DNA from: Rubrivivax sp.
GTDB taxonomy: Bacteria > Pseudomonadota > Gammaproteobacteria > Burkholderiales > Burkholderiaceae_C
Length of the DNA stretch: 36,234 nt
Assembly: GCA_016788525.1 (NCBI GenBank)
Contig: JAEUPD010000132.1
Span: 1 to 36,234, forward strand
Direction: 5' to 3'
Translations under genes and position numbers: made by a program
Shown: piece by piece, positions 130-24,997 of the stretch
Numbering within the stretch: the stretch's first letter is position 1
How the letters are laid out: each line of letters starts with the position of its first letter
The notes under the pieces: generated by a model
What the model was told of the DNA's origin: nothing
Database searches by the model: none
What the model saw: only the letters and a program-made list of their open reading frames with translations

Positions 130-159
130 GCCCTGGCCCACCCCCGCCTGAGCCGCCAC
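130..159 (+). repeat. 30-nt inverted-repeat arm, left (near nuoF)
   Basis: A perfect 30-nt reverse complement of 24968-24997, read by direct comparison. It starts with GCCCTGGCCCACCCCCGCCT and ends with GCCGCCAC. It sits 64 bases before the nuoF start; the partner sits 32 bases before the korA start, in the same orientation relative to its gene. The two arms bound a 24.9-kb segment carrying nuoF-N, the ABC genes, the regulator block and the kor/TRAP operon. It may belong to the repeat family at 1-124, because both family copies are followed by GCCGCCACAACC. Confidence 0.9.
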
Positions 160-223
160 AACCGTGGAAGCAATCCCGCCACGCTTTCGTGCACACAAGC
201 CGAATCGAGGCCAAGGATCTGAC

Positions 224-1537
224 ATGGCCAAAGACGCCAAGATCCTCATGACCTTCACGGTCACGCCCACGTCCCACCTCCTCAGCGAAGTGCGGCAACG
301 CGGCGGCTACAGCGCGCTGGAGAAGGCGCTGAAGACCATGACCCCCGAGGCCGTCGGCAAGGAGGTCAACGCCAGCGGCCTGCAGGGACGTGGCGGCGCC
401 GCCTTCCCCACCGGCCGCAAGTGGAGCGTCATCCAGCTCGACGACGGCCAGCCGCACTACCTGTGCGCGAATGCCGACGAAGGCGAGCCCGGCACCTTCA
501 AGGACCGCTGGATCCTCGAGAGCGCGCCGCACCAGCTCATCGAGTCGATGCTCATCGCGGCCTACGCGCTGCAGGTGCGCCACGCCTTCGTCTACATCCG
601 CGGCGAATTTGACCTGCCCTACCGGCGACTCTCCGCCGCACTCGAAGAAGCGTATGCCGCCGGCCTGGTCGGCGAGAACATTCTCGGCACCGGCTTCTCG
701 TGCGACATCGTCATCTACCGCGGCGCCGGCTCCTATGTGTGCGGCGAAGCGTCGGCGCTGCTCACCTCCATCGAAGGCAAGCGCGGCTACCCGCGCAACC
801 GGCCGCCGCGCCTCACGGTGAAGGGCCTGTACCAGCGGCCCACGGTCGTCAACAACGTCGAGACGCTGTCCAACATCGCGTGGATCGTCAAGCACGGCGC
901 CGAGGCCTTCAAGGCCATCGGCAGCGCGAAGGCACCGGGCACGCGCCTCATCTCGATCTCGGGCCACATCGCCAGGCCCGGCGTGTACGAGATCGAGATC
1001 GGCTACCCGTGGCGCCGGCTCATCTACGACGACTGCGGCGGCATGCTCCACGGTGCCGAGCTCAAGTGCGTGATCCCCGGCGGCATCTCCACCAAGGTGC
1101 TCACGGCGGCCGACATCGACGGGCTCAACCTCTACCCGGCGGAGGTCGAAGCCGCCGGCTCGTCGATGGGCTCTGGCGGCATGGTGGCCATCGCCGAAGG
1201 CACCTGCATGGTGAGGTTGATGCAGGTGATGCTGCGCTTCTACCACCACGAGTCGTGCGGCCAGTGCACGCCGTGCCGCGAGGGCATGGGCTGGCTGCAC
1301 CGCATCATCGACCGCATCGTGCAAGGCAAGGGCCGCATGGCCGACCTCGGCGCGATGGAGCGCATCTCTCGCCTGCAGGACGGCAACACCATCTGCGGCA
1401 TGGGCGACGCCGCCGGCTACGCCGTGCTGGGCATCCTGGCCAAGTACCGCCACGAGTTCGAGCACTACATCACCCACGGCCGCTCGATGTGCAATGGTTG
1501 TCTAGAGGTGAACCTCGAATGCCGCGCATCCACATAG
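224..1537 (+). CDS. nuoF: NADH-quinone oxidoreductase subunit F (NuoF)
   Basis: NADH- and FMN-binding subunit of complex I, in the peripheral arm on the cytoplasmic side. The 437-residue protein has the family length. Motifs seen: nucleotide/FMN loop GRGGAAFPTGRKW (residues 55-67), the second FMN/NADH region YVCGEASALLTSIEGKRGYP (171-190), and cluster N3 ligands Cys345, Cys348, Cys351 (CGQCTPC) with Cys391. The ATG at 224 is chosen because AAGGA at 213-217 is a good ribosome site; an in-frame ATG at 164 lacks one and adds an unconserved 20 residues. First gene of nuoFGHIJKLMN. Its usual upstream neighbour nuoE is 25 kb away on the other strand. Confidence 0.96.
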   Translation: MAKDAKILMTFTVTPTSHLLSEVRQRGGYSALEKALKTMTPEAVGKEVNASGLQGRGGAAFPTGRKWSVIQLDDGQPHYLCANADEGEPGTFKDRWILESAPHQLIESMLIAAYALQVRHAFVYIRGEFDLPYRRLSAALEEAYAAGLVGENILGTGFSCDIVIYRGAGSYVCGEASALLTSIEGKRGYPRNRPPRLTVKGLYQRPTVVNNVETLSNIAWIVKHGAEAFKAIGSAKAPGTRLISISGHIARPGVYEIEIGYPWRRLIYDDCGGMLHGAELKCVIPGGISTKVLTAADIDGLNLYPAEVEAAGSSMGSGGMVAIAEGTCMVRLMQVMLRFYHHESCGQCTPCREGMGWLHRIIDRIVQGKGRMADLGAMERISRLQDGNTICGMGDAAGYAVLGILAKYRHEFEHYITHGRSMCNGCLEVNLECRAST

Positions 1538-23027: not shown

Positions 23028-24935
23028 TCAAACCAGCGGCTGCGCCAGCTTGGCCAGCGCCACTTCCACCACACTGCCGGGCTTGATCGGCTGCCCGCGC
23101 GCCTCGCTCCAGCATTCGATATCGACCAGGTACCGCGAGCGCAGCAGCGTCGCCAGCGCCGAGTAGCGCCGGTTGTCGGCGTCGATCAGCTCGTCGCCCG
23201 GCCGGTCACTCCAGTTGCCCTCGATCGTCATCACGCGCCTGAAGCGCGCGAGGATCGGCTTGATGCCCGAAGGCATCGGCTGGATGAAGCGCAGGTGCAG
23301 CGACGACACCGCGTGGCCCTTGGCGCGCAGCCGGTCCACGGCTTCTTCGATGGCACCTTGCGTGCTGCCCCAGCCGACGAGCAGCAACTCGCCTTCATCG
23401 GCACCGTAGACCGGCGGGGTCCTCAGCGTCTTCTGCAGCGCCGCGAGCTTCAGGCTGCGCATGCGCAGCCCTTCCTCGTTGATGGCCGGGTCGTAGGCCA
23501 CCTTGCTGAAGCGGTCGTGCGCCAGGCCGGTGATGGTGTGCATGCCGCCCGGCTGGCCAGGGACGAAGCGGCGCGCGATGCCGGTGAGCGGGTCCCAGTC
23601 GTAGGGCTTGGCGCCCTCGGGCACCGGCGTCTGGTCGATCGGCGGGGCCAGCCACTCTTCGCTGAACTGCGGGCGCGCGAAGGGCTGCTGCGCGGTGGAC
23701 AGACTGGCGTCGGACAGCACCACCACCACCATGTTGAAGGTCTCGGCGATCTTGCGCGCCGTGATCATCGAGTGGAAGCAGTCTTCGATGCCGGACACGG
23801 CCATCACCACCTTGGGCGCGTCGCCGTGGCTGCCGAAGATGGAGGTGAGCAGGTCGCCCTGCTCCACCTTCGTCGGCTGCCCGGTGCTCGGTCCGCCGCG
23901 CTGCACGTTGACGACGACCAGCGGAATCTCGGCCATCACCGCCAGGCCGATGCCTTCCTGCTTGAGCGAGTAGCCGGGGCCCGAGGTGATGGTCACGGCG
24001 CAGCGGCCGGCGTAGCTGGCGCCGATGGCGAACGCGCAGGCGGCGATTTCGTCTTCGGCCTGGTGCACGAGGCCGCCCACCTTCTCGAAGCACTCGCTGA
24101 GGTAGTGCGAGGCCGAGGTGGCCGGCGTGATGGGGTACATCGCGCAGATGTCCATGCCCGAGGCGAGCACGCCCAGCGCGATGGCGGTGTTGCCGCTGAC
24201 CACCACCTGCGGCTCGGTGATCTTCGGCGCCGGGATGCGGTACTTGAAGTCGAGGTTCGCCTCGGCCCACAAGAAGCCGGCCTCCATCAGCTTGACGTTG
24301 CTGGCGATGACCTTGGTGTCCTTCTTGCCGAAGATGAGTGCGATCTGCGCGCGCCCGAGCGCGAGGTCCAGGCTGTAGATGCTGCACAGCATCCCGAGCA
24401 CGAACATGTTCTTGCCCTTGCGAGGGTCGGCCACGAGGGTGCGGCACTCGCGCTCCAGCGGCACTTCGACGAGGTGGAAGCCGGCTTCGCGCAGCACTGT
24501 CACGGTGCTGGTGTACGAGGCGACGATGCCCGGGTCGGCGTGCTCGCGCCACATGTTCTCGAGGAGGATGGTGGCGCCCTTCTTCAGCTCACCGGCCTTG
24601 ACGCGGCCGAGCAGCACCTGCTCGTTGAACGCCACCGCGAGATCGGTCTGGTCGCCGCCGTTGGTGATGCGCCTGGCGCCGATGCGGATGCGGATGCCGC
24701 TGGCCCCAGCCACGCTGCGCGCCGGCGGCTGGATCTCGGCGGGGATGATCTCCACCGTCCAGATGCCGTTGCCGCTGCGCGCGGCGATGGCCGCCAGGCT
24801 CTGGCCGCAGCGCTGCGCACCTTCGCCGGAGTCGCTGATGACTTCGACGATGTGCTCGGTGAGGTCTTGCGCGGGCTTGACTGGACTTGCCGCCGCCGTT
24901 GTTCCTGGGCGGTCGAGGATGGCGGTGTCGGTCAT
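23028..24935 (-). CDS. korA: 2-oxoacid:ferredoxin oxidoreductase, gamma-alpha fused subunit
   Basis: 635 residues. Gamma domain about 25-210 (SDSGEGAQRCGQSLAAIAAR at its nucleotide loop); alpha domain about 220-600 with SGNTAIALGVLASGMDICAM, YPITPATSASHYL, SGPGYSLKQEGIGLAVMAEI and VQRGGPSTGQPTKVEQGDLL. These are KorA-type landmarks for CoA-dependent oxidative decarboxylation of a 2-oxoacid. The frame stays open for 131 codons upstream, but that part is repeat DNA; the ATG at 24935 begins the conserved protein. First gene of the minus-strand kor run, 436 bases after nuoE. Confidence 0.88.
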   Translation of the reverse strand: MTDTAILDRPGTTAAASPVKPAQDLTEHIVEVISDSGEGAQRCGQSLAAIAARSGNGIWTVEIIPAEIQPPARSVAGASGIRIRIGARRITNGGDQTDLAVAFNEQVLLGRVKAGELKKGATILLENMWREHADPGIVASYTSTVTVLREAGFHLVEVPLERECRTLVADPRKGKNMFVLGMLCSIYSLDLALGRAQIALIFGKKDTKVIASNVKLMEAGFLWAEANLDFKYRIPAPKITEPQVVVSGNTAIALGVLASGMDICAMYPITPATSASHYLSECFEKVGGLVHQAEDEIAACAFAIGASYAGRCAVTITSGPGYSLKQEGIGLAVMAEIPLVVVNVQRGGPSTGQPTKVEQGDLLTSIFGSHGDAPKVVMAVSGIEDCFHSMITARKIAETFNMVVVVLSDASLSTAQQPFARPQFSEEWLAPPIDQTPVPEGAKPYDWDPLTGIARRFVPGQPGGMHTITGLAHDRFSKVAYDPAINEEGLRMRSLKLAALQKTLRTPPVYGADEGELLLVGWGSTQGAIEEAVDRLRAKGHAVSSLHLRFIQPMPSGIKPILARFRRVMTIEGNWSDRPGDELIDADNRRYSALATLLRSRYLVDIECWSEARGQPIKPGSVVEVALAKLAQPLV

Positions 24936-24967
24936 TGGGTGGCTCTCGTCTGACGCGTTCGCGGATG

Positions 24968-24997
24968 GTGGCGGCTCAGGCGGGGGTGGGCCAGGGC
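24968..24997 (-). repeat. 30-nt inverted-repeat arm, right (near korA)
   Basis: A perfect reverse complement of 130-159. It lies 32 bases before the korA start and marks the right end of the 24.9-kb segment whose flip would join nuoE to nuoF. Pairing stops at base 24967, with one further match at 24966, and does not extend past 24997. Confidence 0.9.

Follow-up and report, generated by a model that had tools for sequence, protein, structure and literature searches.

We propose that the gene order at a second complex I locus of Rubrivivax sp., in which nuoA to nuoE and nuoF to nuoN lie apart on opposite strands, is best explained by a lineage-specific inversion through ectopic recombination between two units of a dispersed palindromic element, and we give this reading a probability of about 0.7. 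The window analysed here, a stretch of 36,234 bases with a G+C content of 69.7%, is a complete contig (C66) of a draft assembly that comprises 268 contigs and is 73% complete, so that its base 1 is also a contig edge; this left edge falls inside a repeat arm, to which the first ~163 bases belong. The separation of the two nuo blocks, first noticed in a sequence-only reading of the window, is backed by homology to relatives and by Pfam for all genes but nuoC and nuoJ (Table 1). The same reading had described two stretches of 30 nt as exact reverse complements of each other, which we confirmed directly. They form the longest perfect inverted pair separated by more than 1 kb in the window, the runner-up measuring 18 nt, and in 20 Markov shuffles the longest inverted pair measured 15–18 nt.

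Table 1. Features of the window, in order of position.
Position	Strand	Feature	Basis
1..163	−	Outer portion of palindromic arm A, cut at base 1 by the contig edge	85% alignment to the arm family
130..159	+	Left 30-mer, outer end of the A arm before nuoF	
224..10645	+	nuoFGHIJKLMN, second complex I	Homology to relatives and Pfam; nuoJ by homology alone
15895..19151	−	dctM, dctQ, dctP, TRAP transporter within the putatively flipped block; dctP start putative	Pfam
21998..23074	−	korB-like beta subunit, putative start	TIGR02177 PorB_KorB, under curated cut-off
23028..24935	−	korA-like 2-oxoacid:acceptor oxidoreductase alpha subunit	TIGR03710, marginally above cut-off
24968..24997	−	Right 30-mer, sole remnant of the A arm before korA	Comparison with the relative
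25020..25278	−	B arm, complete, in the nuoE–korA interval	
25372..28552	−	nuoEDCBA, second complex I, nuoA distal	Homology to relatives and Pfam; nuoC by homology alone
28626..33968	−	Malic enzyme (NF010052), frdB, frdA, frdC	FrdA and FrdB over fumarate reductase cut-offs

Gene order in the window and in related genomes

The 30-mer is the mere outer tip of an arm of ~250 nt belonging to a dispersed palindromic element, whose two-armed unit consists of an arm B, a short spacer and an inverted arm A. Between nuoE and korA the window holds a complete B arm and spacer, with the A arm reduced to the 30-mer, and this B arm has 42-nt inverted ends (25026–25067 and 25226–25267) that are 93% complementary. 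Occurrence of the 30-mer before many unrelated genes genome-wide would speak against the sequence-only reading, and this is in part what we find: it is present at eight places in this genome with up to three mismatches, three of them exact, and at five places, four of them exact, in the nearest relative, and it is absent from the other 79 of 81 genomes of the genus.

The nearest relative, Rubrivivax sp. MAG-215, has a NuoE that is 89% identical; its two entries, G054 and G041 (the latter holding locus L064), have equal contig numbers and coordinates and are therefore treated as one genome. Here the nuo genes are unsplit, and the gap of 713 bp between nuoE and nuoF holds a complete B-A unit. 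A second complete unit precedes korA on the same contig (C195), downstream of a gene that we take to be gltD-like from reading its sequence rather than from a family search, so that the order on C195 is gltD-[B-A]-korA ... nuoN-F-[A-B]-nuoE. The two units, each ~560–640 nt long, are mutually inverted, since korA and nuoF face each other. They have at most 59 identical bases in common, and the order on C195 should therefore be safely assembled. Against this contig, window positions 1–24935 align in pieces and reversed, between 62486 and 35948, whereas 25000–35325 align directly to 62607–72850 and 35357–36234 to 74192–75069. The block thus has opposite orientations in two close relatives, and inverted repeats stand at both of its breakpoints, complete in the relative and incomplete in the window, whose contig edge truncates one of them.

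A wider comparison points to the same direction of change. A search with NuoE in 41 genomes (this one and 40 relatives) gave a match in each, of which only those in G024, G018 and G017 are of the present type (64–71% identity), the others being more distant copies; scanning named genomes yielded 21 loci. The sequence-only reading had held that its case would fail if all relatives carried the same split, and the reverse was found: nuoE and nuoF are co-directional neighbours in all 28 distinct fetched relative contigs that bear both genes, with gaps between aligned ends of 8–100 bp in 27 of them and of 713 bp in the nearest relative. These 28 contigs come from 31 relative rows, three of which repeat the same contig; the count leaves out L084, which is distant and lacks a nuoF match, and the nuo fragments of G051, G052 and G086. 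With regard to kor, the nuo and kor genes are convergent in G064 and G088, where the nuoE–nuoF gap is 81 bp, and in G068 and G095 kor is placed co-directionally after nuo, so that kor lies behind nuoE in none of these four genomes; the kor stretches fetched from G055, G087, G009 and G052 contain no nuo gene. Because nuo is unsplit in the nearest relative and nuoE and nuoF adjoin in every one of the 28 contigs, the order in the window would be the derived one with respect to a contiguous nuoA to nuoN.

Inversion, mis-join or switch

In the proposed course of events, the common ancestor shared with the nearest relative would have carried one unit between nuoE and nuoF and another before korA, and the facing arrangement of nuoF and korA would have made these units inverted repeats ~26 kb apart. 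Recombination between them, which we infer to be RecA-dependent or to proceed by template switching, would have turned round the block from korA to nuoF, so that korAB came to lie behind nuoE and nuoF to nuoN behind gltD, and the unit now before korA would have shed the greater part of its A arm, with the 30-mer as the remainder. A second contig of this genome, C4, is collinear with the gltD side of C195 as far as 35425, interrupted by gaps on either side, of which the largest is ~6.8 kb present only in the relative. C4 ends inside arm B after gltD and the window begins inside arm A; C4 and the window together therefore match C195 with the inner block flipped, and the two ends would together make up a single complete unit in front of nuoF. 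The reality of the contig join, like the mechanism, is something we infer, and the inversion itself hinges on a single junction of 436 bp in a draft assembly. By eye, the B arm on the nuoE side resembles the korA-side type of the relative and not its nuoE-side type. A single simple crossover would not yield korA-type sequence in both B arms, and the account therefore needs gene conversion or a mis-join in addition. A comparison by eye of the window's A arm with the two A arms of the relative gave a mixed outcome and was left out of the argument.

A mis-join is the main rival because 129 identical bases are common to the nuoE-side and gltD-side arms. The real chromosome would then have the order of the relative, and the assembler would have passed, within the shared part of arm B, out of the nuoE flank and into the unit on the korA side. 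We regard this as rather unlikely, but with a weight well above that of the readings that follow. The exact identity of 129 bp lies between the nuoE-side B arm of the window and the gltD-side B arm of C4, and the korA-type sequence on the nuoE side, the termination of both contigs within repeats and the draft state of a 268-contig assembly are all consistent with such an error. Both contigs nevertheless continue beyond the identical stretch, which suggests that the assembler either had spanning information or guessed. Moreover 2 of 199 sites distinguish their B arms, which is what one would expect if the copies are separate, though strain variation could give the same picture. On the inversion reading the assembly would break at a complete palindrome, and the unit that it bridges is the shortened one; the un-flipped order would put the shortened unit beside gltD, yet it is at gltD that the assembly breaks. 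Exact overlaps between contig ends are short: C4 has a suffix of at most 37 bp that recurs in the window, the remaining contig ends compared have 0–49 bp in common with it, and the start of the window shares at most 18 bp with the fetched contigs. For the tail of C4, none of the exact matches of at least 35 bp in the other fetched copies covers its two variant sites, and the longest match to a different copy, of 55 bp, lies in the shared part.

The sequence-only reading had left the choice between a fixed inversion that broke an ancestral operon and a reversible switch. The opposite orientation of the block in the relative, with inverted repeats at both ends, argues for an inversion relative to a contiguous nuoA to nuoN. 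The switch, in which both orders would coexist in the population and alter the genes that follow nuoE, found little to sustain it and appears improbable. Opposite orders do occur in two related genomes, the assembly breaks exactly at the repeat, and the 129 identical bases would lie in inverted arms if C4 neighbours the window, which would in principle be enough for homologous recombination. Each assembly nevertheless presents one order, most of the A arm before korA has been deleted, and the window proteins scanned (30 with Pfam, nine with NCBIfam, with nuoC, nuoJ and small ORFs outside the scan) include no recombinase family. The arms are furthermore the ends of a dispersed element, so that the repeat, which in an inverton would be private to the switch, recurs at the eight places noted above. 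Phase-variable invertons, as presented in the available part of PMC11892184, are alike in having a block between inverted repeats and two orientations across genomes; the present case differs in its dispersed-element ends, in the lack of a recombinase among the scanned proteins and in a block of 25 kb. On the inversion reading, the remaining identity would allow rare flipping back. The bolder idea that a widespread, apparently unnamed family of large covarying palindromes serves this bacterial family as a hot spot of recombination, here flipping a module of second complex I, fumarate reductase and 2-oxoacid oxidoreductase between intact and split nuo within a population, seems to us more doubtful still. 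The view that the two 30-mers pair by chance, or are a private inverted repeat, and have no bearing on gene order has nothing in its favour and can be dismissed, given that ~4e-8 such pairs are expected by chance and that the same exact 30-mer is present at both corresponding places in the relative.

Dispersed elements are known to cause inversions when their inverted repeats recombine, as far as the accessible parts of PMC3004938 and PMC9584773 describe it, and judged from one draft junction the flip appears to be a good example of this kind of rearrangement. As in known inversions by ectopic recombination, inverted repeat copies stand at both ends of the block and a dedicated enzyme is unnecessary. 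The accessible part of PMC3004938 concerns the two ends of one IS, whereas here the repeats are two separate non-coding units at a distance of ~25 kb, and the rearrangement interrupts an operon. The literature searched, largely outside subscription journals, held no description of this inversion or of the repeat family, which is a weak negative.

The palindromic element family

Arms of this element are dispersed both in this genome and beyond it. At E ≤ 1e-10 there are at least 19 arm matches in this genome among nine of 287 candidates scored, and at E ≤ 1e-3, fragments included, at least 56 among 40 of 226 candidates scored. Related arms were detected in 53 of 81 genomes of the genus (E ≤ 1e-10); since nine candidates per genome were scored, the true copy numbers may be higher. 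When a different arm served as query, with two candidates scored per genome, matches were found in 53 of 299 sampled genomes of the family, three of them of its own genus. The arms often occur in convergent pairs, mostly 40–180 nt apart between aligned ends but in some cases as far as 310 and 538, although some of these loci were fetched because the genus scan had displayed pairs there. Extragenic placement of the units was looked at for the nuo and kor sites. An Rfam search of the window at gathering thresholds gave no match, and a tRNA search found none in the window.

Folded as DNA, one arm reached −118 kcal/mol, where shuffled versions averaged −81 (z −10.8), and one unit of the relative folded as RNA gave −466 against −312 for shuffled sequences (z −22.5). 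In an alignment of 34 arms chosen from this genome, G054 and other members of the genus, 45 of 70 predicted pairs carry compensated changes on both sides, a count to be read with the reservation that inverted ends inherently lean toward pairing and that the 34 arms are non-independent. The inner hairpins of the ~250-nt arms are variable.

The element invites comparison with the REP, BIME and REPIN sequences, which, in the portions of PMC2817692 and PMC3116915 available, are likewise palindromic repeats that form inverted doublets and show compensatory changes that keep the hairpin. According to the same portions REP sequences measure roughly 20–37 nt, in contrast to the ~250-nt arms described here. 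They usually number more than 100 copies per genome, against the lower bound of 19 given above, and they have a linked Y1/RAYT transposase gene, a link that was not found for the present element. Thus Y1_Tnp was detected in 19 of 53 genomes with the element and in eight of 28 without it (Fisher p 0.62), no arm lies within the 9-kb stretch around the single Y1_Tnp match of this genome, and there is no Y1_Tnp match in G054, which is 76% complete. With respect to MITEs, inverted ends are present in the arms. We consider a covarying palindromic family, with no detected link to a Y1 transposase, a useful by-product of this work that merits description.

Two further observations concern the fate of these units in genomes and assemblies. 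A unit on contig C113 of this genome (L060) is shrunken with respect to its counterpart on C136 of the relative (L123), with both flanks collinear, and arm loss may therefore recur; the other element sites compared between the two genomes reach contig ends. Arms also lie at or near the ends of contigs C4, C16, C66, C84, C89, C112, C154, C165 and C226 of this genome, which suggests that the repeat helps to fragment its assembly.

The second complex I and its neighbourhood

The split locus encodes a second complex I, its NuoE being 39% identical to the copy on contig C254 of the same genome, a contig of 7,812 bases on which matches to nuoA and to nuoC through nuoH run in one direction as far as the contig reaches. 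With reference to the standard nuoA to nuoN operon, the two blocks of the window jointly give the usual order but are split between nuoE and nuoF, and, unlike a single standard set, they form a divergent second set beside another one. Fumarate reductase, malic enzyme, a TRAP transporter and a 2-oxoacid oxidoreductase are its neighbours, and the locus presumably serves a low-oxygen metabolism of C4-dicarboxylates; among these genes, the name frdC was given by position, without a Pfam match. As nuoE, nuoF and korA are free of internal stops, the split need not abolish function.

If the inversion is real, it would mean that even a strongly conserved operon can be broken up by a scattered palindromic repeat, and the two related genomes would be a pair well suited to testing the effect of splitting complex I genes. 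It equally counsels caution, in that long repeats, which make gene order uncertain, may show no more than their tip as a short inverted repeat where a contig ends.

Two proteins of the locus deserve mention in their own right. A protein of 734 aa (19735–21939), adjoining korAB, has a C-terminal ferredoxin-like domain as its sole recognised domain, and its gene also lies beside korA in all eight korA-bearing relative contigs compared. The NuoG of the second complex I (1522–3060) is short, at ~512 aa, and carries a trace of a molybdopterin-type domain below the cut-off.
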